Positions 29,494 to 43,677 of a stretch of DNA of 64,000 bases are shown one piece after another. Position 1 is the stretch's first letter. Each line of letters begins with the position of its first letter. Origin of the DNA: Candidatus Thiothrix sulfatifontis (GTDB lineage Bacteria; Pseudomonadota; Gammaproteobacteria; Thiotrichales; Thiotrichaceae); contig CP094685.1 in the NCBI GenBank assembly GCA_022828425.1, positions 1,674,001 through 1,738,000 on the forward strand, given 5' to 3'. The notes below the pieces were generated by a model. It was given only the letters and a program-made list of their open reading frames with translations, had not been told where the DNA came from and searched no databases. Made by a program: the position numbers and the translations under genes.

Positions 29494-29665
29494 GAGGTCT
29501 TCCTGACAAGGTTTTGCGGTAAGTGTGGCATTAGGGGTGGCTTTGTTCCAGCAAAAAACTGACCAATGCGGAGATTTTGCGTCCGCACTGTGGTGAATAT
29601 GGCAGGTATAGGCGGAGTCGCGTAAAATTTAAAAATGATTTCTAAATGTATGCGTGGGTTGTGTG

Positions 29666-30244
29666 ATGCGTGAATTAGCGCCGAATTCGTTTGTTTTTGA
29701 AAAGCGCGATGCGTTGCCGGGGTTTTTGTGCGACAACATGGTAGCACGTTTTGAGCAGAATCTAGCCGACCAATACGCCGGACGCATCGGTCAAGACATG
29801 GGCAGTAACCAAAGTGTGAAAAAAACCACTGATATTTTCGTTAGTGGCGACGATAAACCGCATTGGAAAGATGTGGATAATAATTTGCACCGTTCTCTGG
29901 CATTGGCGTTACGTGAATTTCGCGAGACTTTTCCGTATTTCCAAGGCTCGTTTAAGGACATGGGCTACAATTTACAACGTTATCAGCCGGGCGAGTATTA
30001 CCATTGGCACATTGACGGTGGCAGCCACCAATTCGCAATGCGCCAATTGGTGGCTTTGTGGTATTTAAACGATGTGCCGGTGGCGGCAGGTGGCGCGACC
30101 GATTTCTTGTTTCAGCAACTGAGCGTGCAGCCGGAAAAAGGCAAATTGGTATTGTTTCCGCCATTCTGGACACACGAGCACCGTGCCGGGTTGATGAAAT
30201 CGGGGGCAAAATACATTGCGACGACTTGGGTCATTTTCGCGTGA
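29666..30244 (+). CDS. 2OG-Fe(II) oxygenase, prolyl-4-hydroxylase type
   Basis: A 192-residue protein with the double-stranded beta-helix iron site: HWHID supplies His115 and Asp117 and THEH supplies the distal His (170 or 172), with a following Lys (AKYIATTW) for 2-oxoglutarate. The layout fits the small P4Hc family (PF13640). The substrate, a protein residue or small molecule, is not predictable. The chosen ATG gives the conserved start MRELAPNSFVFE. It is divergent from the J-domain gene across 172 bases that hold an inverted repeat (TGCGGA...TCCGCA, 29566-29587), and convergent with the next gene 4 bases away. Confidence 0.8.
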   Translation: MRELAPNSFVFEKRDALPGFLCDNMVARFEQNLADQYAGRIGQDMGSNQSVKKTTDIFVSGDDKPHWKDVDNNLHRSLALALREFRETFPYFQGSFKDMGYNLQRYQPGEYYHWHIDGGSHQFAMRQLVALWYLNDVPVAAGGATDFLFQQLSVQPEKGKLVLFPPFWTHEHRAGLMKSGAKYIATTWVIFA

Positions 30245-30248
30245 AACT

Positions 30249-30566
30249 TTAGAGCAATTCATGCCCTTGCATGTCACCTTCGGTATTCATGTGAACTTCG
30301 CGTATTTGCGGCATCCGTTTGAGGATGTAAGCCGCCATGAGTGTGCCGCTTTTTTGGTTGCCGTTGGAAAGAGCGGTAAGAATTTTATCGGCTACGATCT
30401 GGCAGCGCTGTTCTTGATCCGGCTTATCTACCCACTTGCGGCTCATTTGGTAGCCTTTACTCATGTCCTGATCCATCTGCGCGAAAAAATCTTCGCCTTC
30501 CGCCAACATAAAATCCGGCACGTCAATATCGCGGGTGGTGTCGTTGATTTGTATCCGTAATTGCAT
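30249..30566 (-). CDS. Uncharacterised 105-residue protein
   Basis: Not recognised. It is a soluble, Met- and Gln-rich protein (MQLRIQINDTTRDIDVPDFM then LAEGEDFFAQMDQDMSKG) with a predicted beta start and helical remainder, and no cysteines. It sits between two dioxygenase genes, converging on the first and diverging from the second with a 66-base gap. ATG 30566 is preferred to the GTG codon immediately before it. Confidence 0.6.
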   Translation of the reverse strand: MQLRIQINDTTRDIDVPDFMLAEGEDFFAQMDQDMSKGYQMSRKWVDKPDQEQRCQIVADKILTALSNGNQKSGTLMAAYILKRMPQIREVHMNTEGDMQGHELL

Positions 30567-30632
30567 CACTCTTTAACCTATGCTTCTGTCTTGCGGGCAG
30601 ATTACCCGATTCTAGCTTTGAAAGGAAATGCC

Positions 30633-31301
30633 ATGCTCCTACTGATTAAAAATGTCCTTGATGCGCAACGTGTGAAAGAAGTGCAGGAGTTGCTTGCCAC
30701 GGGTGAATTCGTGGATGGGCGCTTTTCGGCGGGGATGGAGGCGGCAAAAGTGAAATACAACCAAGAGCTTTCCCCGAATAGCCCGTTGCACCGGCGTTTG
30801 AATGCGATGGTGATGTCGCCGTTGGTACAACACGCGGAATATCAGGCGGCGGTAATGCCGTTACGGGTGGCGACGGCGTTTTATGCACGTTATTTGCCGG
30901 GAATGACGTATGGTTTTCACGTGGATGATCCGGTCATGGGGCCCATGTCGGGGCGTTACCGTACCGATGTGTCCACCACCGTCTTTCTCAACGACGATTA
31001 CGAGGGTGGTGAGATCGTCATCCGTACCGCTTATGGGGAAGAAAAAATACGCGGGGAAGCCGGTGATGCGGTGGTGTATGATTCTGGCAGTTGGCACAAA
31101 GTCGCGGAAGTGACCAAAGGCATCCGCTTAGTGGCGGTGACGTGGGCGCAAAGTTTGGTGAAAGACCCGCAGCAACGTGAGTTGCTCTATCAATTAGCCA
31201 AAGCTCGCGCAAGCGTGATTGCAAAGTTGCCTCAGTCCGATGAGGCCGCCAGCATTAGCACCGTGCATATTAATTTGCTACGGATGTGGAGCGAAGTGTA
31301 A
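30633..31301 (+). CDS. PKHD-type Fe(II)/2OG hydroxylase (YbiX/PiuC family)
   Basis: A 222-residue protein matching the PKHD-type hydroxylases, which are 225-229 residues. Iron ligands are His96 and Asp98 (FHVDD) and His155 (SWHKVAEVT), with Arg in KGIRLVAVTWAQS for 2-oxoglutarate; the C-terminal helical tail is also present. Family members (YbiX, PiuC) are often linked to iron uptake and are Fur-regulated; no Fur box or siderophore receptor was seen here. AAAGGA lies about 8 bases before ATG 30633, which is preferred to the longer open frame upstream. Confidence 0.88.
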   Translation: MLLLIKNVLDAQRVKEVQELLATGEFVDGRFSAGMEAAKVKYNQELSPNSPLHRRLNAMVMSPLVQHAEYQAAVMPLRVATAFYARYLPGMTYGFHVDDPVMGPMSGRYRTDVSTTVFLNDDYEGGEIVIRTAYGEEKIRGEAGDAVVYDSGSWHKVAEVTKGIRLVAVTWAQSLVKDPQQRELLYQLAKARASVIAKLPQSDEAASISTVHINLLRMWSEV

Positions 31302-31424
31302 CGGCTGACGCTACCCTACCGCTAAGCAGGAAAATTTCATTCTTTATCCGGGACGCAGTTTGCCTCCTGGTTTTTTTAGCGGAAAAAGGGGAAGTAAAGT
31401 AGATGCGTTTACAAGGAGTTTTGC

Positions 31425-32309
31425 ATGGGGCAATTAGTGATTAAAAGAGTGCCGTGGTGGAGAAGTCACGCTAAACATCTGGTGATATGGGGGCCAATCG
31501 CTGCTGTGCAAGCCAGCACTTTGGCAGGTTTGGGTTATTTCTATCAGCGCCTTAATGCATTGGAAGCAACTGAAATGCTGCCACCTGCTCCCTCTGTTTT
31601 AGCCAGCACTTTGCAAGACGTTAAGACTCAGCGTGTGCTGCGCACCCGTCGTATCCCTTTGCCGCCGCCGCCCGTGATTGCATCTGCTTCGATAATGCCT
31701 GCTCCTGTTGTATTGAATCGTTCAACTATCGCCGCTTCTTCACGGGTGGGGCAAGATTTTTCCACGGCATCAGTGCCGCGTTCGGTTGTAGCAAAGCGCA
31801 AAGCAGTATTGAAACCGAAGCAGGTGGTTAAGACCGTTAAGGTTGCCAAACTCAGTGACGCTGAGCGCGTTGCGCAAGCTAACCGCGACAATGTTTTCAA
31901 TGAGCAGGTATCGAGCAATAATAACCCTCTGTTTGTGACACAAGTTCAACACAATGCGGCAGTGGCAGAACCTGTGGCAATGCCTGAGGAGATACAACGC
32001 GGCAAACCGCTGCCGGTAGGCATCGTTGTGTGGGTTTACATAGGAGAGTTGCGTGAACAAGGCTGGCATGGTCAGCGTTTACATCTGGCATCCAACAGTG
32101 GTTTACCTATTGTGGGCGAACAATATCGCACTCAAAAAATCCACGGCATCTACGATCAACCTTATGGCAGCCGTACAATGGGAGGCTTTCAAAAAGGTGA
32201 TCTCGTCAGTATTTTAGAGGTGCGTCACGAATCAAATTTTGGCGTATGGGCTCAAGTACGCAAGGTGCGTTCGGTAGGCAAGCCCGGATGTCTTGAGTGC
32301 ACTCAATAA
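31425..32309 (+). CDS. Membrane-anchored protein with C-terminal SH3-like domain
   Basis: A 294-residue protein of unknown function. A single hydrophobic segment near residues 20-42 follows a basic N-terminus (KRVPWWRSHAKH), suggesting an inner-membrane anchor. A low-complexity Pro/Ala/Val/Lys linker spans about 50-190. The C-terminal 95 residues (VWVYIGELREQGWHG ... GIYDQPYG ... GGFQKGDLVSILEV) look like a bacterial SH3-type domain, which often binds peptidoglycan. AAGGAG precedes ATG by 7 bases. It ends at a bidirectional terminator and faces the small genes near dsr. Confidence 0.6.
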   Translation: MGQLVIKRVPWWRSHAKHLVIWGPIAAVQASTLAGLGYFYQRLNALEATEMLPPAPSVLASTLQDVKTQRVLRTRRIPLPPPPVIASASIMPAPVVLNRSTIAASSRVGQDFSTASVPRSVVAKRKAVLKPKQVVKTVKVAKLSDAERVAQANRDNVFNEQVSSNNNPLFVTQVQHNAAVAEPVAMPEEIQRGKPLPVGIVVWVYIGELREQGWHGQRLHLASNSGLPIVGEQYRTQKIHGIYDQPYGSRTMGGFQKGDLVSILEVRHESNFGVWAQVRKVRSVGKPGCLECTQ

Positions 32310-32310
32310 A

Positions 32311-32334
32311 AAAAGCCGCTGAGTAGCGGCTTTT
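32311..32334. terminator. Bidirectional terminator between convergent genes
   Basis: AAAAGCCGCT and AGCGGCTTTT form a 10-bp perfect stem around GAGT. A-tract and T-tract on either side let it work on both strands, for the SH3-like gene from the left and the 63-residue gene from the right. Confidence 0.85.
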
Positions 32335-32356
32335 ACATGTCAAAAGCTGTAACAGC

Positions 32357-32548
32357 TTACTTCCAGAAATTTGCTTCTTTAGAAGCCATTTCACGGACTT
32401 CGTTAGCCAATTCTTGATAACGCTCACGGTAAGATTTCCACTCACCAACGTAGTATTCTTCAGCACTGAATGCGCCCGACTGTTCGTAAGCCGTGAATTT
32501 TGCCTGCATTTCAATCATTTCGCTGATCAGCTCTTGCTTAGTGCTCAT
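32357..32548 (-). CDS. Small charged helical protein, 63 residues
   Basis: Not recognised. The protein (MSTKQELISEMIEMQAKF ... EANFWK) is almost entirely helical, rich in Glu and Lys and without Cys. GAGAGG lies about 9 bases before ATG. It follows the DsrC-like gene with an 87-base gap that contains a strong hairpin. The same direction and proximity suggest co-expression with the DsrC-like protein. Confidence 0.6.
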   Translation of the reverse strand: MSTKQELISEMIEMQAKFTAYEQSGAFSAEEYYVGEWKSYRERYQELANEVREMASKEANFWK

Positions 32549-32605
32549 GTCCGATGCCTCTCTAAATTAATCAATTCCTGACAACAGGATAAACGGATTC
32601 ACCTA

Positions 32606-32625
32606 AAAGGGGGAATACCCCCTTT
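32606..32625 (-). terminator. Hairpin between the DsrC-like gene and the 63-residue gene
   Basis: AAAGGGGG and CCCCCTTT form a perfect 8-bp stem with a 4-base loop (AATA). On the minus strand it is followed only by TTTTAGG, so it may end most transcripts from the DsrC-like gene or stabilise its 3' end while allowing read-through. Confidence 0.5.
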
Positions 32626-32635
32626 CGGGTAATAA

Positions 32636-32980
32636 TCAATAGCCGCCTTTGCGGTTAGTTGCTGGCAGACCTGCCACTTTCAAACCTTGCTTGCTAGGGG
32701 CGCGTGGAAACAGGGTGTACATGTCTTTACTGGTTAATTTTTTATCGCCCCATTGCTCAGCCATCGCCTTTTGAATAATGCGTTCCATTGGCTGTGTACC
32801 GCCATTATTAATGTATTGGTCACGCAGGTAATTCAGAACATCCCAGTGACGTTCAGTCAACTCGCCAATGCCTTCTTCAGCAGCAATTACTTTGGCAACT
32901 TCTTCGTTCCAATCGTTCAGGTCTACCAAATAGCCTGCTTCGGTGGTTTCGATGGTTGTACCATTTACTTCGTAAGCCAT
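32636..32980 (-). CDS. DsrC/TusE-family protein lacking both C-terminal cysteines (RspA-like)
   Basis: A 114-residue relative of DsrC with the same fold signatures (GYLVDLNDWNEEVAK, ELTERHWDVLNYLRDQY, LFPRAPSKQGLKVAGLP). The C-terminal arm reads KVAGLPATNRKGGY. The two redox cysteines that carry sulfur in DsrC (compare KYGGLPKPTGCV of the dsrC copy in this window) and the single one of TusE are absent. It therefore cannot carry persulfide on the arm; such cysteine-less members have been named RspA and proposed as regulators. ATG 32980 is chosen for its AGGAAC site. A separate promoter probably lies just upstream. Confidence 0.82.
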   Translation of the reverse strand: MAYEVNGTTIETTEAGYLVDLNDWNEEVAKVIAAEEGIGELTERHWDVLNYLRDQYINNGGTQPMERIIQKAMAEQWGDKKLTSKDMYTLFPRAPSKQGLKVAGLPATNRKGGY

Positions 32981-33021
32981 GTTTTGTTCCTCATGCATTC
33001 GATGAAATTCTTGACCGCAAA

Positions 33022-33027
33022 ATTATA
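33022..33027 (-). promoter_or_regulatory. Candidate -10 box for the DsrC-like gene
   Basis: On the minus strand CGTATAATTTTG contains a perfect TATAAT box 41 bases before the ATG at 32980. No good -35 hexamer is at standard spacing, so activation by a regulator is possible. The region is the only gap (103 bases) between this gene and the Cas6-like gene upstream. Confidence 0.35.
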
Positions 33028-33082
33028 CGAAAAAGCGGTGCATCTCCTATTCCTCAAAAGGGATAGGGTAAAAGGTGCATTA

Positions 33083-33772
33083 CTATTCCGTTGGTTTTAG
33101 GGTTTTGATGCCTTTGTGCGGCATAAACAGCCCGCAACCCAGTTTGCGTCCTTCACCCAGACCGTATTGTTGCAAGCGGATTGAGGGGGCGCTATCCAAG
33201 TCAGCGATCATTAAATGCCGAGTATGCAATACCTTATCTGGCGTGCGTAATGTATGACTTTTGCCGCATAACATCTTTTTTACTTTGAAATCAGCAACCC
33301 GTTTCACTTCTGTCGCCATGCGCTGCAAAAAGCTATTTTCGTCTTCCGCCTCATCCGATAACACATACCGCGCAAAAATGACCGAGGTGTGTACGAACGG
33401 CTTTTCTTTCATATCCCGTAAGTCGATCGCGTAGCCGTTCACATCCAGCGTTGTGCCGGACAGTGCCTGCGTTGCGAAGATGCGTGATTTGGGAATGCGT
33501 AAAAACATTCGCGTGCGCCGCGACGGTAGCAGGAATTGGTTGGCGGCATCATCCGGGCGTTCCCAGCCATTGCCACTTTCGGCAACGTGAATCGGGTGAA
33601 CTCCCGCGACGATTTCATCGGCAAACCACGGCAGGGCTTGCTGAACGGCTTGTGCCAGATCCCACGCATGATCCAACGGCAATTGCTTGCACGCAATGGC
33701 GAAACTCACGTCCAGCACGTCATCGGGTGCTTGATAGGGGAGGGTTTTATCCTCGTCTTCCTGCCAAAACAT
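33083..33772 (-). CDS. Orphan Cas6/Cmx6-like RAMP protein
   Basis: A 229-residue protein resembling the Cas6 group annotated as type I-MYXAN Cas6/Cmx6. Features: N-terminal DVSFAIACKQLPLDHAWDLA, the HPIHVAESGNGW segment, RRTRMFLRIPKSRI, LDVNGYAIDL, KKMLCGKSHTLRT, and the C-terminal glycine-rich loop GLGEGRKLGCGLFMPHK, a hallmark of Cas6 RAMP folds. Cas6 cuts CRISPR repeat RNA. Here no other cas gene and no array is present in the window. ATG 33772 is preferred (GAGGTGAG just before it) to the longer frame. The start lies 5 bases after the stop of the 65-residue gene, so it is the third gene of an operon with a TauD-like enzyme, beside dsr. Its RNA target is unknown. Confidence 0.72.
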   Translation of the reverse strand: MFWQEDEDKTLPYQAPDDVLDVSFAIACKQLPLDHAWDLAQAVQQALPWFADEIVAGVHPIHVAESGNGWERPDDAANQFLLPSRRTRMFLRIPKSRIFATQALSGTTLDVNGYAIDLRDMKEKPFVHTSVIFARYVLSDEAEDENSFLQRMATEVKRVADFKVKKMLCGKSHTLRTPDKVLHTRHLMIADLDSAPSIRLQQYGLGEGRKLGCGLFMPHKGIKTLKPTE

Positions 33773-33777
33773 ATCGC

Positions 33778-33975
33778 TCACCTCGCCGACGAAAAAGTGA
33801 TTTCCAACTGGTCGTACCAATCGTCAGGACGGTCTTTGTAGCCGGGTGGCTCAATATCAATCTGGAAAAAGATCGAGCCGGTTTCCAACGCGCGTTGCTG
33901 CACGATTTGCTTTAGTTCCTCGAAGTTGCTGATCTTGTCGCCGTCTACCATCAAAATTTGGCTTAAACTGAGCAT
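33778..33975 (-). CDS. Uncharacterised 65-residue protein in the TauD/Cas6-like operon
   Basis: Not recognised. The peptide (MLSLSQILMVDGDKISNFEE ... DQLEITFSSAR) has a mixed helix/strand pattern, no Cys and a PPGYKDRPDDWYDQ turn. An AAGGAG site lies 6-7 bases before ATG. Its start overlaps the end of the TauD-like gene by 13 bases and it ends 5 bases before the Cas6-like start, so translation is coupled on both sides. That strongly suggests a real gene working with its neighbours. Confidence 0.65.
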   Translation of the reverse strand: MLSLSQILMVDGDKISNFEELKQIVQQRALETGSIFFQIDIEPPGYKDRPDDWYDQLEITFSSAR

Positions 33976-34868
33976 AGGGTCTCCTTGGGTTCTGCGACCC
34001 GATTAAAATAACGCCCACGGTATAGCAAGCGGGTTTGTGTCGGGTCGTCGCTGTCTTTAAATGCGGTGCGGCAGTGCAACACGTTGTTGCACAACAAGCC
34101 TTCGCCCGCCTGCAATGTGTACCTTATTTTGTAAGGTGAGTCCTGTTGCCATAAATTCAATAGGAAATCGGCGGCTTCGCGTGTCATCGGGTCATCGCGC
34201 CAGATCACATTGCGCTGGCGGGCAGAATAGCGCATGTGCAAATGCCCCGCAGCGGTGACGCTAAACACGGGGCCGGATTGTTCGGGGCGAATGCTTTCCC
34301 CGTTCAATACATTGGCAGGAATCGTGAAGGCATTCGGGTGCATCAAGGCGTGAATGTAATCAGGGTTAGCATCGCGCAATAAAATGTAGGCAATTTCATG
34401 ATCCAGCAACCAGCTTTCACCGCCTTCGAGTGCAGGTTGGACACAATGCAGCAACATGCCGTGAATTTGTGCTTCGGGCAAGTTGTAGTAACCATCGGTA
34501 TGCCAGCTCAGTGGTTTATTGGTGTAGGGAATGTAATCGTGTTGCCCCGCGTGTGCGGTAACGTGCAGTGACGTGAGGCTATCTTCATCCGCGCACAAAT
34601 TGCTATCCAGCCGCAACAAGCCCACTTTTTGCCCTAAACGGTGGACGTGACGCTTGCTGCGCCCGTCGCCTTGCACAAAATGGTACAGCGCGAGATTGTG
34701 CTCACGGCAAATCTGTTGAAGTTGCGCTATTTCGGTCTCGCTAGGGTTTTCAGGGTCTTCAATCGTCGTCATCAACGCTTCCGGCCGCAATGGGTAAGCC
34801 GCTAATTTTTTATCGCGCCATGCTTGATAGTGCGTTAACGCCTTGATATTGAAAGGAGAGTTGTGCAT
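33963..34868 (-). CDS. TauD/TfdA-family 2-oxoglutarate dioxygenase
   Basis: A 301-residue non-haem iron dioxygenase. The iron site is His123 and Asp125 (SWHTDGYYN) and His265 (NNVLHCRTAF), with the C-terminal Arg of LLYRGRYF for 2-oxoglutarate. Family members hydroxylate taurine, alkylsulfates, gamma-butyrobetaine and many others; the substrate here cannot be fixed. No sulfonate transporter is nearby. It is the first gene of a three-gene operon and diverges from dsrA over 320 bases. Confidence 0.83.
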   Translation of the reverse strand: MHNSPFNIKALTHYQAWRDKKLAAYPLRPEALMTTIEDPENPSETEIAQLQQICREHNLALYHFVQGDGRSKRHVHRLGQKVGLLRLDSNLCADEDSLTSLHVTAHAGQHDYIPYTNKPLSWHTDGYYNLPEAQIHGMLLHCVQPALEGGESWLLDHEIAYILLRDANPDYIHALMHPNAFTIPANVLNGESIRPEQSGPVFSVTAAGHLHMRYSARQRNVIWRDDPMTREAADFLLNLWQQDSPYKIRYTLQAGEGLLCNNVLHCRTAFKDSDDPTQTRLLYRGRYFNRVAEPKETLCSV

Positions 34869-34908
34869 GTTGCAGACCTCGGCAAAGACGGATAGTTCGT
34901 ATAGCTAT

Positions 34909-34936
34909 TTGCAATATTAAAAAATCTGAATATGCT
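34909..34936 (+). promoter_or_regulatory. Candidate sigma-70 promoter for the dsr operon
   Basis: TTGCAA and TATGCT are separated by 16 bases in an AT-rich stretch, matching four of six consensus bases each. Transcription would start near 34943, giving a leader of about 245 bases before dsrA with a hairpin at 34981. Confidence 0.35.
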
Positions 34937-34976
34937 ATTGTACCTCCGGTGCTGGACTATTTTTGATTATGTGAGG

Positions 34977-35001
34977 TGCCTATCCCCTTAGGGATACAGC
35001 A
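34977..35001 (+). promoter_or_regulatory. Leader hairpin upstream of dsrA
   Basis: TATCCC (34981-34986) and GGGATA (34991-34996) pair perfectly around CTTA, and TGC/GCA flank the stem and can extend it past a bulge. AGGGA within the right arm could act as a ribosome site for the ATG at 35001, so the stem would mask it. It could equally be a dyad operator for a regulator protein. Confidence 0.4.
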
Positions 35002-35096
35002 TGGAATCAGCTAACACCCCATGGGTGAGATTCTATGATGCAGGCATGACGCATACACTTAGCCCACTCGCAAATAGCGCGAACACCGTTACGTGA
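35001..35096 (+). CDS. Possible 31-codon leader ORF before dsrA
   Basis: ATG 35001 to TGA 35094-35096 encodes MESANTPWVRFYDAGMTH and 13 more residues. The only support is an AGGGA site 7-8 bases upstream, buried in a hairpin, and its place in the dsr leader. It has no run of one amino acid as in attenuation peptides and may be chance. Confidence 0.2.
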   Translation: MESANTPWVRFYDAGMTHTLSPLANSANTVT

Positions 35097-35188
35097 CCCG
35101 TTTTTGATTTGATCTTTCACTTGACCATTTGAGTTGTAGAGCTGGTTAAGAGAAAGCGCCATTGCAATCGTTTACTGAGGAGGCAGGT

Positions 35189-36490
35189 ATGGCAACGAAT
35201 AATTATCCAACGCCGATGCTGGATGTACTGGAAGAAGGCCCATGGCCTAGCTTTATCAGCGGTTTCAAGAAACTGCGTGATGAGCATCCAGATGAGCGCA
35301 TCCGCAACACTATCAACGGCCTGATGGGGCAGTTGGAACATTCTTACGAAACCAAAATGGGCTACTGGAAAGGCGGTACCATTTCTGTTTTCGGTTACGG
35401 CGGCGGCATTATCCCGCGCTTCTCTGAAGTCGGTCATATGTTCCCGGAATCCAAAGAATTCCACACCTTGCGTGTACAGCCACCGGCTGGCAACTACTAC
35501 ACCACCGACATGTTACGCCAATTGGCGGATAGCTGGGAGAAGTGGGGTTCTGGTTTGCAGACTTTCCACGGTCAAACCGGCAATATCATGTTCATCGGCG
35601 CGAACAGCGTTAATTTCCAACATTTCTTTGATGAAATCAACGAATACGGTTGGGATTTGGGCGGTGCAGGTCCTTGCGTGCGTACTGGTATGTCTTGCGT
35701 GGGTGCGGCACGTTGCGAAATGTCCAACTGTAACGAACACGCGATTCATCGCCGTCTGATGAATAACTTCACGGATGACGTGCATCGCCCAGCACTGCCT
35801 TACAAGTTCAAGTTCAAAGTTTCCGGCTGCCCGAACGATTGCCAAAACGCGATTGAGCGTTCCGACTTTGCGGTAATTGGTACTTGGCGCGATGACATGA
35901 AAGTCGACCAAGAAGCCGTTAAAGAAATGATCATGAAGAAAGCCAAAGAAATTGGCAAAGAAGGTGATCGTTCTGCGGGTCGTCAATACATGTTTGACAA
36001 CGTTATCAGCCGCTGCCCAACACAAGCACTGAAGCTGAATGACGATGATACCCTCACTGTGGATAACAGCAATTGTGTACGTTGTATGCATTGCTTGAAC
36101 GTTATGCCAAAAGCACTGCAAGTTGGTGATGATAAGGGTGTAACCATTCTGATCGGCGGTAAGCGTACTCTGAAAATTGGCGACTTGATGGGAACAGTAG
36201 TCATTCCTTTCATGAAGCTTGATACCGAAGAAGATTACGAGCGCATCGTTGAACTGGCTGCTTCCATCATTGACTTCTGGGCTGAAAATGGTCTGGAACA
36301 CGAGCGTTGCGGCGAAATGATTGAGCGTATCGGTCTGGTGAATTTCCTCGAAGGTATCGGTATCGACCCAGATCCAAACATGATCAAGCAACCACGTAAC
36401 GTTTCTTACGTGCGTACTGACGGTTGGGACGAAGCTGCTGAAGCTTGGTTCAACCGCAAGCGCGAAGAGAAAATGGCTGCTGCTGCCTAA
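35189..36490 (+). CDS. dsrA: Dissimilatory sulfite reductase, alpha subunit (oxidative type)
   Basis: DsrA with DsrB forms the sirohaem enzyme that, in sulfur oxidisers, runs backwards and oxidises DsrC-bound sulfur to sulfite in the cytoplasm. The protein has 433 residues from ATG 35189, which follows a strong GAGGAGG site. The sirohaem/[4Fe-4S] ligands appear as Cys170-X5-Cys176 (CVGAARC) and Cys214-X3-Cys218 (CPNDC). A ferredoxin insert has CVRCMHC from Cys296. The dsrEFH and dsrL genes downstream mark the system as oxidative. It opens a 12-gene operon. Confidence 0.97.
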   Translation: MATNNYPTPMLDVLEEGPWPSFISGFKKLRDEHPDERIRNTINGLMGQLEHSYETKMGYWKGGTISVFGYGGGIIPRFSEVGHMFPESKEFHTLRVQPPAGNYYTTDMLRQLADSWEKWGSGLQTFHGQTGNIMFIGANSVNFQHFFDEINEYGWDLGGAGPCVRTGMSCVGAARCEMSNCNEHAIHRRLMNNFTDDVHRPALPYKFKFKVSGCPNDCQNAIERSDFAVIGTWRDDMKVDQEAVKEMIMKKAKEIGKEGDRSAGRQYMFDNVISRCPTQALKLNDDDTLTVDNSNCVRCMHCLNVMPKALQVGDDKGVTILIGGKRTLKIGDLMGTVVIPFMKLDTEEDYERIVELAASIIDFWAENGLEHERCGEMIERIGLVNFLEGIGIDPDPNMIKQPRNVSYVRTDGWDEAAEAWFNRKREEKMAAAA

Positions 36491-36501
36491 GACGGCACTT
36501 T

Positions 36502-36534
36502 GCAACAGGGCAGTGTTTAACCCTGCCTTGTTGC
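36502..36534 (+). promoter_or_regulatory. Intercistronic hairpin between dsrA and dsrB
   Basis: GCAACAGGGCAG and CTGCCTTGTTGC form a 12-bp stem with one G-T pair and a 9-base loop. No T run follows, so it is more likely an RNA-processing or stability element than a terminator. Confidence 0.6.
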
Positions 36535-36573
36535 CCAGATTATTGATAAATTTGAGTTTGACGGAGGCTTCAC

Positions 36574-37650
36574 ATGGCCGCACCAGAAATGCGCGATCCT
36601 ATTGAATCTGGATGCCCGGACGGTTTCCAGTACATGCACCCAGTTATGCGCCGTAATTTCGGCCTGTGGGCATATCACGAAGACCCACGCCCAGGCGTTT
36701 TGGTTCATGTATCCAAAACAGGTGAGAAGGTTTGGACTGTTCGTGCGGGTACTCAACGTATTCTTGACGTATTTACCCTGCGCAAGCTGATGGATATTGG
36801 TGATACTTACGGCGAAGGTTATGTTCATTTTACCATTCGCTCCAATATCGAATTCCAATTGGCTGACGGCGATAAAGTAGAGCCGTTGGTGAAAGCATTA
36901 GAAGACGCTGGTTTCCCTGTTGGTGGTACACGTAACTCGGTTACTTCACTGTCCCACACTCAAGGTTGGTTGCATTGCGACATTCCGGGAACTGATGCTT
37001 CCGGTGTTGTGAAAGCGATGATGGATGAGTTACTGCCTGAGTTCAAAGCATGGAACATGCCGAACCGCGTACACATCACGACGTCTTGTTGCCAGATTAA
37101 TTGCGGCGGTCAAGGTGACATCGCAATTAACGTGCAACACACTAAACCACCTAAAATCAACCACGCGTTGGTTGGTAATGTGTGTGAGCGTCCTTCTGTT
37201 GTAGCGCGTTGCCCGGTTGCGGCGATTCGTCCGGCGATGGTTGACGGCAAGCCTTCCTTGGAAGTTGATGAGAAGAAGTGTATTTGTTGTGGTGCTTGTT
37301 ACCCACCATGCCCGCCAATGCAAATCAATGACCACGAAGCGACTCAGTTAGCTGTTTGGATCGGTGGTAATCACTCCAACGCACGTGGCAAGCCTACTTT
37401 CCAACGTTTGGTGGCAGCGGGTATCCCGAACAACCCACCACGTTGGCCTGAAGCGACCGCAATCGTTAAAAAGATTCTGGAGTGCTACAAAGCAGGTGCG
37501 AAAGATTGGGAGCGTATCAACGAGTGGGTTGAGCGTATCGGCTGGCCGCGTTTCTTTGAAGTGACGGGTCTGCCATTCACGAAGTACCACATCGACAACT
37601 GGCGTGGTGCGCGTGCCAACCTGAACTCTTCAACGCATATCCGTTTCTGA
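36574..37650 (+). CDS. dsrB: Dissimilatory sulfite reductase, beta subunit
   Basis: Partner of DsrA; 358 residues, the usual length. Cofactor cysteines are visible in TTSCCQINCGGQGD (Cys172, 173, 177) and VARCP, and a ferredoxin domain contains CICCGACYPPCPP. DsrB normally holds the catalytically competent sirohaem. An ACGGAGG ribosome site precedes ATG. dsrE starts 27 bases after its stop. Confidence 0.97.
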   Translation: MAAPEMRDPIESGCPDGFQYMHPVMRRNFGLWAYHEDPRPGVLVHVSKTGEKVWTVRAGTQRILDVFTLRKLMDIGDTYGEGYVHFTIRSNIEFQLADGDKVEPLVKALEDAGFPVGGTRNSVTSLSHTQGWLHCDIPGTDASGVVKAMMDELLPEFKAWNMPNRVHITTSCCQINCGGQGDIAINVQHTKPPKINHALVGNVCERPSVVARCPVAAIRPAMVDGKPSLEVDEKKCICCGACYPPCPPMQINDHEATQLAVWIGGNHSNARGKPTFQRLVAAGIPNNPPRWPEATAIVKKILECYKAGAKDWERINEWVERIGWPRFFEVTGLPFTKYHIDNWRGARANLNSSTHIRF

Positions 37651-37677
37651 TCGAAGCGGCACGAGGAATAGAACGGA

Positions 37678-38070
37678 ATGAAATACACAATTCTGGTCAA
37701 CGAAGGCCCTTATCAGCACCAGTCTGCTGATACTGCACTTCAGTTCGCCCGTGCTGCATTGGAGAAGGGACACAAGATTTTTCGTGTGTTCTTCTACCAT
37801 GACGGCGTAAACAACGGTACACGTCTGAGCGTCCCACCGGCTGACGACCGCCTGATCCAGAAATCTTGGTCAGAATTGGCTGAAAAGCATGGTTTGGACT
37901 TGGTTATCTGTATTGCAGCGGCTCAACGTCGCGGTTTGATGGATGCCGATGAAGCGAAGCGTCAAGGTTTGGATGCTAACAACATTGCCCCCGGTTTCCG
38001 TATTTCGGGCTTGGGTCAGTTGGTTGAAGGCGGTACCCAGTCTGATCGTTTAGTCGTGTTTGGCGATTAA
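37678..38070 (+). CDS. dsrE: Sulfurtransferase subunit DsrE
   Basis: DsrE2F2H2 relays persulfide sulfur to DsrC before oxidation. This 130-residue protein carries the active-site cysteine at position 78 (DLVICIAAAQRRG), the position reported for Allochromatium vinosum DsrE. TusD is the homologue in tRNA thiolation. dsrF follows at 13 bases. Confidence 0.96.
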   Translation: MKYTILVNEGPYQHQSADTALQFARAALEKGHKIFRVFFYHDGVNNGTRLSVPPADDRLIQKSWSELAEKHGLDLVICIAAAQRRGLMDADEAKRQGLDANNIAPGFRISGLGQLVEGGTQSDRLVVFGD

Positions 38071-38083
38071 GGAGCTGATAAAG

Positions 38084-38488
38084 ATGTCTACAAAGAATTT
38101 TTTGTTTGTAAACCGCAAAGCTCCTTACGGCACGGTCTACGCACTGGAAGCCTTGGAAGTCGTACTGATTTCCGCAGCGTTTGAGCAAAATGTTAGTTTG
38201 GCATTCATCGACGACGGTGTTTACCAGATTACTAAAGGTCAAAACAGCAGGGAAACCGGCATGAAGAATTTTTCTCCGACTTTCCGTGCTTTGGGTGACT
38301 ACGACATTACTAAGTTATACGTCTCTACTGAGTCTTTGACAGAACGAGGCCTGACGGTTGATGACCTGATGGAGCTCACTTACGAAGACGCTGATGACGA
38401 TTATGCTGAAAAGCCCTCTATTATTCTGGTCAACCGTGAGGAAATGGCTGCAATGATGGCAGAGCAAGAAGTAATTTTGAGCTTCTAA
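38084..38488 (+). CDS. dsrF: Sulfurtransferase complex subunit DsrF
   Basis: A 134-residue DsrE/F fold protein, TusC homologue. As in other DsrF proteins there is no active-site cysteine equivalent to that of DsrE; the role is structural in the hexamer. ATG 38084 has AAGGAG upstream and gives the conserved start MSTKNFLFVNRKAPYG; the longer frame would overlap dsrE. Confidence 0.95.
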   Translation: MSTKNFLFVNRKAPYGTVYALEALEVVLISAAFEQNVSLAFIDDGVYQITKGQNSRETGMKNFSPTFRALGDYDITKLYVSTESLTERGLTVDDLMELTYEDADDDYAEKPSIILVNREEMAAMMAEQEVILSF

Positions 38489-38502
38489 CGGAGGATTTGA
38501 AC

Positions 38503-38808
38503 ATGTCTATGTTACATATTGTCAACAAGTCCCCGTTTGAACGTGTGGCTTTTGCAAGCTGCTTGGCTCATGCCAAGGCAGGCGATTCGATTCTGATGAT
38601 CGAAGATGCCGTGGTTGGTGCAGTCGACGGGTCAAGCTTTGCTGATAAGGTGAAAGCTGCTATGTCTGATAAAACTGTGTACGTGCTAGGTGCTGATTTA
38701 GCCGCACGTGGTTTGGAAGGCAAAGCAATAGATGGGATTGTGAGCGTTGATTACGCGGGTTTTGTAGACCTGACAGCAAATAACGACACTACCCAAAGCT
38801 GGCTGTAA
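38503..38808 (+). CDS. dsrH: Sulfurtransferase complex subunit DsrH
   Basis: A 101-residue TusB homologue and third subunit of the DsrEFH hexamer. The conserved cysteine is Cys20 (FASCLAHAK). GGAGG lies 8 bases before ATG 38503. The gene sits directly before dsrC, whose product it serves. Confidence 0.95.
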   Translation: MSMLHIVNKSPFERVAFASCLAHAKAGDSILMIEDAVVGAVDGSSFADKVKAAMSDKTVYVLGADLAARGLEGKAIDGIVSVDYAGFVDLTANNDTTQSWL

Positions 38809-38838
38809 GTTTTAACATTTTTGATAGGAGGCCATCTC

Positions 38839-39174
38839 ATGGCATCAATTAACGTTGGCGGTAAAGATATTCCGCTGGACGAAGAAGGCTACTTGGAAAA
38901 CTTGTCCGACTGGACTCCAGAAGTTGCAGAAATTCTGGCTAAAGGCGAAGACGTAACCCTGACTTCTGAACATTGGGAAATCCTGAATTTCCTGCGTGAA
39001 TACTATGAAGAATACCAAATCGCTCCAGCGGTTCGCGTTCTGACTAAAGCAGTAGGCAAGCGTTTGGGCGCTGACAAAGGTAACTCCAAGTACCTGTACA
39101 GCCTGTTCCCATACGGTCCTGGCAAGCAAGCGTGTAAGTACGGCGGTCTGCCTAAACCTACTGGTTGCGTGTAA
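38839..39174 (+). CDS. dsrC: Sulfur carrier protein DsrC
   Basis: DsrC carries sulfur on its flexible C-terminal arm as substrate of DsrAB, and its trisulfide or persulfide form is processed by DsrMKJOP. The 111-residue protein has both redox cysteines, Cys99 (KQACKYGG) and Cys110 (PTGCV), required for the full DsrC cycle. TAGGAGG lies 8 bases before ATG 38839. A hairpin follows the stop, which may raise its mRNA level over dsrM. Confidence 0.97.
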   Translation: MASINVGGKDIPLDEEGYLENLSDWTPEVAEILAKGEDVTLTSEHWEILNFLREYYEEYQIAPAVRVLTKAVGKRLGADKGNSKYLYSLFPYGPGKQACKYGGLPKPTGCV

Positions 39175-39196
39175 TAGCTTAACCGCTATAAGAGTT

Positions 39197-39222
39197 GCTC
39201 CGGTTCGCCGGAGCCTCTTCTT
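39197..39222 (+). terminator. UUCG-loop hairpin after dsrC (partial terminator)
   Basis: GCTCCGG and CCGGAGC pair around the tetraloop TTCG, then CTCTTCTT follows. The stem is very stable but the T run is broken, so it likely stabilises the dsrC end and allows some read-through to dsrM. Confidence 0.6.
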
Positions 39223-39278
39223 AAGCCCTGTTGTTGACAGGTTTTCAGAAGAGAGACTAATGACTTCAGGAGTACGCA

Positions 39279-40046
39279 GTGACTTTCGTAAGTATTTTTT
39301 ACGGACTGTTGTTTTGGGTCGCAACGTTAATTTTAATTGGCGGTGTGGCTGCAAAAGTTCGTCAATATTGGAATACCCCGGCCCCATTGAAAATTCCAAC
39401 CACACCTGCACCGATTACGCAGAGCGGTGTTGTATGGCGCATGTTCCGTGAAGTGGTATTTTTTCAAAGTTTGTTTCGTGCAAATAAAATTTTGTGGTTG
39501 TTTGCGTTTCTGTTCCACATTTCATTATGGTTAGTGCTGGTTCGTCACAGTCGCTATTTTGTGGATATGAATGAATTTCTGGTGTTTATGCAGCCATTTG
39601 GTCGCTACGCAGGTATTACCATGGTATTGGGTTTAGCCGGTTTGTGGGCGCGTCGTTTCTTAGTGGATCGGGTGCGTTACATTTCAGCGCCTTCTGACCA
39701 TCTAATGTTAGCTTTGTTGATTGCGATCGGCGCTAGTGGTTTGATGATGAGTTTTGTGGCTCACGCAGATGTTACTCAGGTTAAAGTATTTTTTGGTGGC
39801 ATGTTAACTTTTGGTTTCTTTGGAGAGGCAGGTTTGCCAGCTGATCCAATTGTGTTAGTGCACTTGTTATTGGTTGCGTTATTGATGATTATTTTTCCGA
39901 TCAGCAAACTGTTACACGCACCGGGCATATTTTTTAGCCCGACCCGTAATCAAGTGGACAATCCACGTGAGAAACGTCATGTATCCGGCTGGGCATTAGA
40001 ATTGGAGCGTCAGGGTAAAAATTACCTAGGCGAGCTGAAGAAATAA
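39279..40046 (+). CDS. dsrM: Membrane cytochrome b subunit DsrM
   Basis: Integral membrane dihaem cytochrome b of the DsrMKJOP complex, exchanging electrons with the quinone pool. The 255-residue protein has about five transmembrane segments and conserved His in LFHISLWLVLVRHSRYF and LVHLLLVALL. It uses a GTG start with CAGGAG upstream. NarI-like fold. dsrK starts 12 bases later. Confidence 0.93.
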   Translation: MTFVSIFYGLLFWVATLILIGGVAAKVRQYWNTPAPLKIPTTPAPITQSGVVWRMFREVVFFQSLFRANKILWLFAFLFHISLWLVLVRHSRYFVDMNEFLVFMQPFGRYAGITMVLGLAGLWARRFLVDRVRYISAPSDHLMLALLIAIGASGLMMSFVAHADVTQVKVFFGGMLTFGFFGEAGLPADPIVLVHLLLVALLMIIFPISKLLHAPGIFFSPTRNQVDNPREKRHVSGWALELERQGKNYLGELKK

Positions 40047-40058
40047 GAGGTAAATACC

Positions 40059-41615
40059 ATGGCTGATTACGAAGTTCCAAAATTGACAGGTGAAGGCTAT
40101 TGCGAAGTTCCTGCTGTACGCGAAGGCGTAATGGAGAGCAAGGGGCCTTTCATTGCTAAGCCAGATTTCCAATCAGCATTAAACTTTCCGGCTGATTTTG
40201 ATGCGGCAGGTTCGTTAGTTCCTAATTGGAAAGAACGCGCCCTTGATAAAATGGCTGATTTGAAAAGTCGCTATCGCTCGTTGCAAGTGTTTTTGGATAT
40301 TTGCGTTAAATGCGGTGCATGTACTGATAAATGCCATTATTTTATCGGCACGTCTGATGCGAAAAATATGCCGGTGGCGCGTCAAGATTTGTTGCGTAAG
40401 GTTTACCGTCGTTACTTCACATTTGCGGGCAAATACTTCCCCAAGTTGGTCGGTGCAACTGATTTGACTGAAGAGGTATTGGCTGATTGGTACAATTATT
40501 ACCATCAATGCTCACAGTGTCGTCGCTGTTCTGTATTTTGTCCTTACGGTATTGATACGGCTGAAATTTCAATGGCTGCTCGTGAGATTCTTGATCACGT
40601 TGGCTACGGTCAAAAGTATTGTAACGAAATCATCGGTAAAGTTTTTAAGATCGGTAACAACCTCGGTCTGCCCGGTCCGGCGCTCTTCGACACAGTAGAA
40701 GGTTTGGAAGAAGACGTTGAAATGGATACGGGTATTAAAGTCCGTTTCCCACTCGATGAAGACGGTGCGGAAGTATTGCTGGTAACACCCTCAGCGGACT
40801 TCTTCGCTGAGCCGCATATCGATGGTTTGATTGGTTACGCGAAAGTGTTCCATGAAACCGGCGTGACATGGACGATGAGTACCATCGCTTCAGAAGCTGG
40901 TAACTTTGGCATGTTCATCGGTTCTTACGAGACCATGCGTCGGGTTTCTTTGCGAGTTCGCGAAGCTGCTATCAAGCACAAGGTAAAGCGCATTGTGTTT
41001 GGCGAATGTGGGCACGCATGGCGTGTGGCATACAGTTTCCTGAATACTTTGGCGGGACCATTTGATTTCTTGGATCAACGCTACCCTGTTCCACAACACA
41101 TTTTGGAATTTACTTGGAGCCATATCCAAGCTGGCAACTTGCAAATTGATAAGACAGAGAATGACGACAAAGTATTAACTTTCCACGATTCGTGTAACGT
41201 TGCACGCGGCAGTCGTATGGGTGATTACCCCGGTGGTCAGTTTGACATTCCCCGCAATGTCATTCGTGCGGTGTGTAATAACTTTGTGGACATGCCCGCT
41301 GATACCATTAACGACGCAACTTTCTGTTGTGGTGGTGGTGGCGGTTTGTTGACAGACGACTTGATGGAGATTCGTGTCAAAGGTATCCAGCCGCGTGCGG
41401 AAGCCCTTAAGCACGTGACCACGCATAACGGTGTCACACACATGGCAGCAATTTGCGCTATTTGTAAATCGCAGTTCACCAAGGTATTACCGTACTACGG
41501 TTTTACGATGGATCAAATTGTTAGCGTTCACCAATTGGTGAGCAACGCGCTTGTCCTGCAACGGCAAGTATCTGTGCAGGCACGTCCCGACGATGAAGAC
41601 GGCGACGAAGACTAA
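40059..41615 (+). CDS. dsrK: HdrD-like iron-sulfur subunit DsrK
   Basis: Cytoplasmic catalytic subunit of DsrMKJOP, homologous to heterodisulfide reductase HdrD, thought to act on DsrC. The 518-residue protein has two [4Fe-4S] motifs (CVKCGACTDKC from Cys82 and CSQCRRCSVFC from Cys151) and CCG-type cysteine motifs near the C-terminus (HDSCNVARG and FCCGGGGGLL) that bind a noncubane cluster in HdrB/D. A hairpin separates it from dsrL. Confidence 0.95.
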   Translation: MADYEVPKLTGEGYCEVPAVREGVMESKGPFIAKPDFQSALNFPADFDAAGSLVPNWKERALDKMADLKSRYRSLQVFLDICVKCGACTDKCHYFIGTSDAKNMPVARQDLLRKVYRRYFTFAGKYFPKLVGATDLTEEVLADWYNYYHQCSQCRRCSVFCPYGIDTAEISMAAREILDHVGYGQKYCNEIIGKVFKIGNNLGLPGPALFDTVEGLEEDVEMDTGIKVRFPLDEDGAEVLLVTPSADFFAEPHIDGLIGYAKVFHETGVTWTMSTIASEAGNFGMFIGSYETMRRVSLRVREAAIKHKVKRIVFGECGHAWRVAYSFLNTLAGPFDFLDQRYPVPQHILEFTWSHIQAGNLQIDKTENDDKVLTFHDSCNVARGSRMGDYPGGQFDIPRNVIRAVCNNFVDMPADTINDATFCCGGGGGLLTDDLMEIRVKGIQPRAEALKHVTTHNGVTHMAAICAICKSQFTKVLPYYGFTMDQIVSVHQLVSNALVLQRQVSVQARPDDEDGDED

Positions 41616-41631
41616 TTAAAGCATTTATTTC

Positions 41632-41650
41632 CTCGCGGCATCGCCGCGAG
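41632..41650 (+). promoter_or_regulatory. Intercistronic hairpin between dsrK and dsrL
   Basis: CTCGCGGC and GCCGCGAG form a perfect 8-bp GC-rich stem with the 3-base loop ATC. It is not followed by a T run. Likely an mRNA processing or stability site. Confidence 0.55.
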
Positions 41651-41676
41651 TGGATTGAAATCAACAGGAGATAGGC

Positions 41677-43638
41677 ATGGCAACCGCAGCTCACGATAGC
41701 AAACTTAAAGGTAATGGTCTTACATACCGCCGTTATAAAGACGGTGATAATGAGTGGGGCAGTATGCACGACAGCATTTTTGTCGCCGATACTAGCCACA
41801 AATGCCCTACCTACATTCATAAAACGCCACCTTGCCAAGGTAGCTGTCCATCTGGCGAAGATATTCGTGGTTGGTTGCAAATTGTGCGTGGTATTGAAAA
41901 GCCACCCGTTGGTATGACCATGCAGGAATACGCTTTCCGCCGCTCTACCAACGCTAACCCATTTCCATCAATGATGGGTCGCGTTTGTCCAGCACCTTGT
42001 CAAACGGGTTGTAACCGTAACGATGTTGATGATTTCGTTGGTATTAACGCTGTCGAACAATACATAGGTGACAGTGCAATCGCGGCTGGCTTCAAATTTG
42101 AAGCACCCGCAGAATTGAGTGGTAAGAAAATTGCGATCGTCGGGGGCGGCCCCGCTGGTATGGCGGCTGCTTACCAATTGCGTCGTATGGGTCATGCATC
42201 CACTGTTTTTGAACAGCACCCTGAACTGGGCGGCATGATGCGCTACGGTATTCCGGGCTACCGCGTGCCACGTGACAAATTGAGCGCAGAGATGCAACGT
42301 ATCATCGATATGGGTGAAATCACGATTAAGTGCAACACCACTGTTGGTAAAGACGTCACTGTCGAACAGTTGGAAGGCGATTTTGACGCAATTTTGTGGA
42401 CAGTTGGTTGCTGGAGTGGTCGCGGTTTGTTTGTTGACAAATTTGCCGAAACACCAAACTGCATATCTGCTGTCGACTACCTTGAAGCGTACAACAAAGG
42501 CACGATGAAATACACTGCACCCCGCGTAGTGTGTGTCGGCGGTGGTGATACCTCCATCGATGTTGTTTCTGTTTCTCGTCGTATTGGTACTTTGGCTAAC
42601 TACGCTGAAAACGCTGAAGATGCCGCGACTGGCAAAGTAATTCATGGTGACGTAGGCGCAAAAGCACCTGCTGCTGTTACTTTGACTACTTTGTTTCCTC
42701 TCGATCAAATGACTGCTGCGGAGCATGAAGTACAGGATGCTCTGAAAGAGGGTGTTAACATCCTGACAGAAGTGATGCCAACTGAGATTGTTTTTGGAGC
42801 GGATGGGCGTGCGATCGGCTTGAAAGTGGTTGAGTGCGTTATGAAAGGTAATATGCCGCAAGCGAAAGAGGGCGGCAAAGAAACCATTATTGAAGCAGAT
42901 CTTATTGTTGCGGCTATCGGTCAATTCGGTAAATTGGACGGTATTGAAGGTCTCAATAATGGGCGTAATCAAATCAATGCCGATGCACTGTATCAGGTAC
43001 CGGGCAAACCGGGGCATTTTGCTGCTGGTGATGCAGTACGTCCGCATTTGTTGACCACTGCCATTGGCCAAGCATCAATTGCATCTGAAACGATCAACCA
43101 GTATTTGCGTGCTGAAGAGTTTAAAAAGCGTCCAAAAGTTGATAAACATCACTTTGACTTGATGGAAAAGCTACATGAAGCTGGTTTAGACCCGTTGAGT
43201 TACGAAACCAGTCGTGCGGAAGATATGCGTGGTACAGATGGTGCGCAATATGCCGTTCACAATTACGACGACCGTTCTAAAAATGTAATCGTGCCTTCTA
43301 AAGATTTATTTTTGGGTCATTTCAACAGCGTAGCACGTAATCTGCGCACTGAAGATGTACCAACGGCTGAAGAAGTGTTGGGACATTTTGCGGAACGCAT
43401 GAATCCACTAGCAGAAGCTGATGCGGTTAGTGAAGCTAAACGTTGCATGAGCTGCGGTATGTGTTTCGAGTGCGACAACTGCGTCATTTATTGCCCGCAA
43501 ACTGCCGTCTATCGCGTGCCTAAGAAACAAGCGACACTGGGCCGTTATGTTGCCACCGATTATTCCAAATGTATTGGTTGCCATATTTGCGCAGACGTCT
43601 GCCCAACTGGGTATATTGAAATGGGTTTGGGTGAATAA
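41677..43638 (+). CDS. dsrL: NAD(P)H:acceptor oxidoreductase DsrL
   Basis: A 653-residue iron-sulfur flavoprotein of the GltD type that couples DsrAB to NAD(P) and is essential for sulfur oxidation in Allochromatium. N-terminal cysteine motif PPCQGSCPSGEDIRGW, FAD-binding GGGPAG near residue 156, a second dinucleotide site VGGGDTSID, and C-terminal ferredoxin motifs (CMSCGMCFECDNC and CIGCHICADVCP). An ACAGGAG site lies before ATG. Its presence marks the pathway as oxidative, since most strict sulfite reducers lack this form. Confidence 0.96.
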   Translation: MATAAHDSKLKGNGLTYRRYKDGDNEWGSMHDSIFVADTSHKCPTYIHKTPPCQGSCPSGEDIRGWLQIVRGIEKPPVGMTMQEYAFRRSTNANPFPSMMGRVCPAPCQTGCNRNDVDDFVGINAVEQYIGDSAIAAGFKFEAPAELSGKKIAIVGGGPAGMAAAYQLRRMGHASTVFEQHPELGGMMRYGIPGYRVPRDKLSAEMQRIIDMGEITIKCNTTVGKDVTVEQLEGDFDAILWTVGCWSGRGLFVDKFAETPNCISAVDYLEAYNKGTMKYTAPRVVCVGGGDTSIDVVSVSRRIGTLANYAENAEDAATGKVIHGDVGAKAPAAVTLTTLFPLDQMTAAEHEVQDALKEGVNILTEVMPTEIVFGADGRAIGLKVVECVMKGNMPQAKEGGKETIIEADLIVAAIGQFGKLDGIEGLNNGRNQINADALYQVPGKPGHFAAGDAVRPHLLTTAIGQASIASETINQYLRAEEFKKRPKVDKHHFDLMEKLHEAGLDPLSYETSRAEDMRGTDGAQYAVHNYDDRSKNVIVPSKDLFLGHFNSVARNLRTEDVPTAEEVLGHFAERMNPLAEADAVSEAKRCMSCGMCFECDNCVIYCPQTAVYRVPKKQATLGRYVATDYSKCIGCHICADVCPTGYIEMGLGE

Positions 43639-43677
43639 TCACCTTTTCCATGAGTGCATGGCTCGACAGGAATTAGC

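Follow-up and report, generated by a model that had tools for sequence, protein, structure and literature searches.

A gene whose product is called Cas6 by Pfam, NCBIfam and PADLOC alike lies beside dsrA in the 64-kb stretch of Candidatus Thiothrix sulfatifontis DNA analyzed here (hereafter the window). The question raised by this locus is whether the protein serves CRISPR or the Dsr system, a main sulfur-oxidation route in the sea, in sediments and in symbioses. Among the Gammaproteobacteria surveyed, what the annotation names Cas6 is almost always a companion of the Dsr genes and not of CRISPR.

The earlier note, made from the letters of the window, had described three tightly packed minus-strand genes, each with a ribosome site, and this layout was confirmed in full. 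The tauD-like gene and p65 overlap by 13 bases, the cas6-like gene begins 5 bases past the end of p65, and the three starts are preceded by GAGG (tauD), AAGGAG (p65) and GAGGTGAG (cas6) (Table 1). The packing of the proposed three-gene operon thus stands, but the operon is longer, as a DsrC-family gene and p63 continue on the same strand and complete the order tauD, p65, cas6, cysteine-less DsrC paralogue, p63. This module order recurs across much of Gammaproteobacteria, far above chance, and the order cas6, DsrC-family gene, p63 is retained in many relatives. The start of the DsrC-family gene is probably its second ATG, at 32980; dsrA starts at the ATG at 35189, the open-reading-frame list beginning at TTG 35162.

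Table 1. Features of the Cas6-containing module and the adjoining dsr genes (positions in the window)
Feature	Position	Strand	Evidence
p63, 63 aa, final module gene	32357..32548	-	in 53/110 loci
DsrC/TusE-family paralogue lacking both C-terminal cysteines	32636..32998	-	PF04358 3.5e-35
Cas6-family protein, 229 aa, dsr-linked group	33083..33772	-	PF09559 4.7e-54; AF2; 8fcj_B match
p65, 65 aa, between tauD and cas6	33778..33975	-	in 86/101 loci with enough upstream sequence
TauD-family Fe(II)/2-oxoglutarate dioxygenase, 301 aa	33963..34868	-	PF02668 1.6e-20
Palindrome TATCCC-CTTA-GGGATA, divergent tauD/dsrA promoter region	34981..34996	.	pattern kept across loci
dsrA, divergent from module	35189..36490	+	TIGR02064 616.7 bits in own genome
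12-bp stem-loop, dsrA-dsrB gap, candidate RNA target (inferred)	36502..36534	+	gap z -2.91
dsrB	36574..37650	+	ORF in dsr order; homologues adjoin dsrA in relatives

The product of the cas6-like gene is a true Cas6-family protein. Its PF09559 match reaches 183.7 bits (gathering cut-off 26.7), and it narrowly passes TIGR02807 cas6_cmx6 with 101.4 bits against a cut-off of 98.85. An AlphaFold2 model built from 32 relatives (pLDDT 86.4, pTM 0.82) retains the Cas6 fold over residues 13-223, with low confidence at residues 1-10, 66-69 and 222-229. Foldseek returned 38 PDB matches at E≤0.001, every one of them Cas6, Cse3 or Cascade (top 8fcu_B, 6.1e-16), while VIA-align placed 8fcj_B first (Z 23.9, rmsd 2.4, 199 residues), followed by 5yi6 (Z 17.0) and Pyrococcus 3qjj (Z 15.8). 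The Cas6/RAMP fold claimed earlier was therefore found by modeling and PDB comparison, and the Cas6-type glycine loop read from the sequence is kept as well, with G204, G206, G212 and G214 at 97-99%.

His35, which opens the first helix, is the candidate catalytic residue, a role that we assume by analogy with Cas6. It occurs in 149/152 aligned rows, the window included, and is replaced by Asn in the other three; R86 and R92 are present in 152/152 rows and E145 in 150/152. When the second copies of loci fetched twice (L010/L176, L030/L158, L034/L128) are left out, the counts are 146/149 for His35 and 149/149 for both R86 and R92. Because Asn stands at this position in 3/152 rows and in the Cas6 of the type I-B CAST (PDB 8fcj chain B), His35 may not be decisive. 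The CAST protein, which is the top structural match at 21% identity, differs in being part of a transposon Cascade complex and has a gap at the GNGW insert of the dsr-linked proteins. The latter have conserved features of their own, namely an N-terminal W3, the GNGW insert (which encloses the poorly modeled residues 66-69 and is absent from three distant members, L194-L196), KM-CGK and a C-terminal PHKGI, and these are left unexplained by a Cas6 nuclease function.

The tie to dsrA was assessed in a class sample of 369 gammaproteobacterial genomes from 272 genera. PF09559 was found in 118 genomes and dsrA over the cut-off in 112, or in 119 when seven genomes with only truncated pieces among the matches listed are counted; weak dsrA matches (near 1e-10) were ascribed to other sulfite reductases. 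Among the dsrA matches listed, both genes were present in 111 genomes, Cas6 only in 7, dsrA only in 8 and neither in 243 (Fisher p 7e-75, which overstates independence, several species of one genus occurring within the sample), with the family thereby in 111/119 dsrA genomes. On the side of dsrA, the contig stops within 2.6 kb in all seven Cas6-only genomes, and in G318 a piece of dsrA is present at that end. The link to dsr proposed earlier is borne out by 82 genomes in which at most 5 kb separates Cas6 from dsrA, the two being on opposite strands in every case. The other 36 Cas6 genomes comprise 29 with dsrA and 7 without, and in 18 of these 36, including all seven Cas6-only ones, the contig stops on the side of dsrA within 4.6 kb. 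Eighteen Cas6 genomes have at least 5 kb upstream without dsrA, yet all 18 carry dsrA elsewhere, and the tie therefore exceeds mere neighborhood.

Linkage was also followed in a one-genome-per-species scan that yielded 34 loci from relatives 44-94% identical. The fetched stretch contained dsrA at 19/34 loci, the module occupying the opposite strand, and many of the other 15 lay on short contigs; five (L007, L011, L020, L030 and L035) had no dsrA in the 10 kb upstream of cas6, so that linkage is not universal. In a phylum sample of 299 genomes (two equal-size draws taken as the same draw), dsrA passed the cut-off in 51, of which the 4 within the class all had Cas6, and PF09559 gave no match in the 47 dsrA genomes outside Gammaproteobacteria. 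In three new class members of this sample, Cas6 again adjoins dsrA. No association was seen with cas1, which was matched in 51/118 Cas6 genomes versus 85/251 others (p 0.08). The search in relatives suggested by the earlier note thus found a conserved gene order that pairs with dsrA (111/118 Cas6 genomes) and not with cas1.

The partners of cas6 were counted at 117 loci of the class sample, those upstream at the 101 loci with at least 2.3 kb of upstream sequence and those downstream at the 110 with at least 1.1 kb of downstream sequence. In addition to p65 and p63 (Table 1), tauD was present at 71/101 loci and the DsrC paralogue at 84/110; nine loci with both flanks had no tauD, p65, DsrC paralogue or p63. 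Coupling to the TauD-like gene, as claimed earlier, accordingly holds for the 71 loci, but TauD is missing in part of the relatives and the module extends beyond three genes. In the dioxygenase, H123 and D125 are kept in 95/98 rows and H265, R280, R284 and R286 in 98/98. Because the HxD...H iron ligands of the TauD family are kept, the protein is probably an active, oxygen-dependent enzyme. It resembles TmpA and the trimethyllysine and gamma-butyrobetaine dioxygenases of the TauD superfamily in its Fe(II)/2-oxoglutarate core and HxD...H ligands, but falls far under their NCBIfam equivalog cut-offs (TmpA 39.2 of 400, TMLH 38.1 of 268.3 and GBB 30.7 of 414.75 bits). Two more 2OG-Fe(II) oxygenase genes (PF13640) lie near the module at 29654-30244 and 30561-31301, the second additionally with a PKHD-type hydroxylase C-terminal domain, and homologues adjoin the module in several relatives.

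The DsrC paralogue shares with DsrC/TusE the PF04358 family and a position near dsr, but lacks the C-terminal Cys-x10-Cys of the two-cysteine sulfur-carrier DsrC. With duplicates and fragments removed, this motif is present in 0/105 copies beside cas6 versus 84/84 copies in the dsr operon; before filtering, it was missing in 109/109 (one a fragment) and present in 85/85, respectively. Some Cys occurs in the last 25 residues of 10/109 copies beside cas6. Such cysteine-less paralogues go by the name RspA in the literature; a search of open-licence PubMed Central for this name returned no relevant paper. In the closest relatives, the gap between cas6 and the paralogue (32999-33082 in the window) carries the element TATCCCTTTTGAGGAA followed by TATAAT, as if the paralogue had a promoter of its own. 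No known family could be assigned to p65 or p63: the p65 model (AF2 pLDDT 88.7) had no PDB match at E≤0.001, and p63 had no Pfam or NCBIfam match at E≤1. At 41 loci, a gap of more than 350 bases before cas6 holds an extra open frame, mostly of one family of ~235 residues (by eye); this gene lies between p65 and cas6 in many relatives (L077-L190) and is missing from the window, and a 90-residue piece of it had no Pfam match over the cut-off.

The divergent promoter region between the module and dsrA, pointed out in the earlier note, was confirmed and contains a conserved palindrome. The pattern TATCYC-N4-GRGATA is exact at 47/103 loci, occurs with at most one mismatch at 71/102 (shuffle mean 0.15) and with at most two at 87/102 (shuffle mean 4.5), the expectation coming from mononucleotide shuffles and one locus with a short gap being dropped; without duplicate loci, the count at one mismatch is 69/100. 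It lies a median of 198 bases ahead of the called dsrA start (192 in the window), and a slightly wider pattern is found at only two places in the own genome, that is, at one besides this promoter. Departures from the palindrome hit both halves about equally, as with a dimeric DNA-binding regulator. An RNA hairpin at this site was considered and rejected: such a structure would need G-T on the transcribed strand clearly above A-C, and the 510 pairs of 85 distinct sites comprised 441 Watson-Crick, 28 G-T, 19 A-C and 22 other, which makes a DNA operator likelier. Judged from this pattern, the palindrome is likely the operator of a dsr regulator, through which the module and dsr may share regulation. 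A degenerate copy with one mismatch occurs in the cas6-rspA gap at 10/109 loci (shuffle 0.3), eight of them the closest relatives (L002-L009), and a nine-base word count of promoter regions gave top words that resemble coding sequence.

A second conserved element was found between dsrA and dsrB, where a strong short hairpin is present at 53/93 loci (0.7-1.4 expected) and below threshold at 40/93. Without duplicate loci the count is 51/91, and three further stretches taken from these loci for comparison gave 3/82, 7/50 and 9/103. A T run follows in only 5/53 cases. The stem of the window lies in an 83-nt gap, and between close Thiothrix relatives the stem bases change in pairs on both sides (by eye); the structure is conserved while its sequence varies freely. 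A strict dependence of the hairpin on Cas6 was rejected, given its presence in 3/13 gaps outside the class, where the family was not found, and in 1/4 gammaproteobacterial dsrA genomes without Cas6 (20 controls were fetched and 3 without a usable gap dropped). The hairpin is therefore not Cas6-specific, and its link to Cas6 is a proposal. An Rfam search of 31000-44000 gave three matches, all under their gathering scores.

The closest named CRISPR family is the type I-MYXAN Cas6/Cmx6 (TIGR02807, PF09559), with which the protein shares the profile family, the fold, the glycine loop and a DH motif (34-35) common to dsr-linked proteins and five CRISPR-linked Cmx6 of cyanobacterial plasmids; the dsr-linked proteins differ in the GNGW insert, KM-CGK and PHKGI and form a separate branch. 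The Cas6-1 of Synechocystis 6803 (slr7014) is, by our guess, of the same family. Its loss impairs crRNA accumulation (PMC3575380). The five CRISPR-linked proteins adjoin cas3 and cmx8 or cas8. No such neighborhood of cas genes and array appeared in the window when it was scanned for repeats and cas1: no direct-repeat family at spacings up to 110 bases was found throughout the 64 kb, and none of the four cas1 matches of the genome falls there, in agreement with what had been stated earlier. Among 154 fetched loci scanned for repeats around cas6 genes, only one (L185, unlinked) had an array-like repeat, ~6.7 kb from cas6 and close to the locus end (14288-14588). In an unrooted tree of 62 rows, chosen from 152 plus 5, the only five CRISPR rows are split from all others by a single branch (length 1.14, SH-aLRT 99); the window protein does not group among them, and a dsr-linked member (L171) is the next to join. 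Because both the type I-MYXAN neighborhood and the grouping in the tree are lacking despite Cas6 family membership, the Cas6-like protein is a non-CRISPR member of the family.

The own genome, a single contig of 3.69 Mb, has four cas1 matches at ~1.283 and 3.211-3.213 Mb and arrays at about 1.28-1.30 and 3.20-3.21 Mb. The description of the gene as an orphan thus holds for the window, which is without an array, but not for the genome, in which arrays and cas genes are present elsewhere. These arrays, the passing of the NCBIfam cut-off for type I-MYXAN Cas6 and the single repeat-bearing locus (1/154) would fit a crRNA-processing Cas6 that acts in trans on the other arrays. Against this, the 80 kb read around cas1 shows, at ~1.283 Mb, a type III locus with arrays of ~36 nt repeat, a csm1-type cas10, a RAMP gene and a PF10040 Cas6 of its own (57.4 bits), and, at ~3.21 Mb, a type I-C locus with cas3, Cas5d, Cas7, a longer array and a split cas1. 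No cas6 lies in the type I-C locus within the stretch read, but Cas5d is the processing enzyme of type I-C systems; neither locus therefore needs the window gene, and the objection foreseen in the earlier note, a cas locus elsewhere without its own cas6, is not borne out in the stretch read. Moreover, 67/118 family-bearing genomes have no cas1 match and the five CRISPR-linked Cmx6 are set apart. A role in trans is contradicted by these findings and scarcely credible, and for the own arrays it was rejected in view of the PF10040 Cas6 and Cas5d. The suggestion of a non-CRISPR module is upheld, the neighbors being dsr-module genes and the CRISPR loci of the genome having other processing enzymes. 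The two pieces of the type I-C cas1 (L043:1074-3558, ~3.211-3.213 Mb of the own genome) lie ~1.4 kb apart, and the 335-residue frame between them is probably an insertion element.

What remains to be weighed is the level at which the protein acts. The reading that we put at about even chances is that the Cas6-family protein assists Dsr metabolism at the RNA level and has dsr mRNA as its target. In such a scheme, a Cas6-family protein would have left CRISPR and become a dedicated accessory of Dsr sulfur oxidation in Gammaproteobacteria, where Dsr presumably runs oxidatively in all these genomes. Co-made with the TauD-family dioxygenase, p65 and the cysteine-less DsrC paralogue from the operon divergent from dsrAB, it would bind and cut a hairpin of a dsr transcript and thereby set the stability or the relative output of dsr genes, and the dioxygenase and the DsrC paralogue might adjust this control in response to oxygen or sulfur. 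In Allochromatium, dsr products are reportedly controlled post-transcriptionally, which makes an RNA-level factor plausible; we know of no RNA activity for dsr-linked Cas6 proteins. In its most specific form, a CRISPR endoribonuclease turned dedicated dsr mRNA processor that, across nearly all Dsr-using gammaproteobacteria, cuts the dsrA-dsrB stem-loop and is controlled by a dioxygenase dependent on oxygen and 2-oxoglutarate together with a cysteine-less DsrC sensor, the proposal is a long shot. Possible, if on the unlikely side, is a Cas6 fold put to use without RNA action, as a protein-level scaffold or maturation factor for DsrAB, DsrC or cofactors together with the dioxygenase and the paralogue. 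The paralogue's lack of redox cysteines (0/105), the location of the group-specific motifs outside the Cas6 core, the coupling to enzyme genes and not to any RNA family, and the absence of Rfam matches over gathering scores in 31000-44000 are all consistent with it; the near-invariance of His35, the full invariance of two Arg, and the retention of the fold and the glycine loop speak against it. The same fold and residues would suit an RNA endonuclease or RNA binder with a target outside dsr, such as a tRNA, an sRNA or a thiolated RNA linked to TusE/DsrC relatives, and the DsrC/TusE family does include a tRNA-thiolation branch; yet the tight pairing with dsrA and the 243/369 genomes with neither gene do not point to a general RNA pathway, and we consider such a target improbable.

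Should the RNA-level reading of the dsr-linked protein be true, it would represent a clear instance of a CRISPR nuclease recruited to a housekeeping task. In open-licence PubMed Central full text, a scope outside which most subscription journals fall, no paper linking Cas6 with dsr was found. A near-obligate companion family that annotation pipelines would label as CRISPR would be a missing Dsr component and suggests that a step of bacterial sulfur oxidation has been overlooked; the neighbors of PF09559/TIGR02807 matches in Gammaproteobacteria should be checked before these are counted as CRISPR genes. Elsewhere in the window, positions 1779-11834 hold an open reading frame of 3351 residues.
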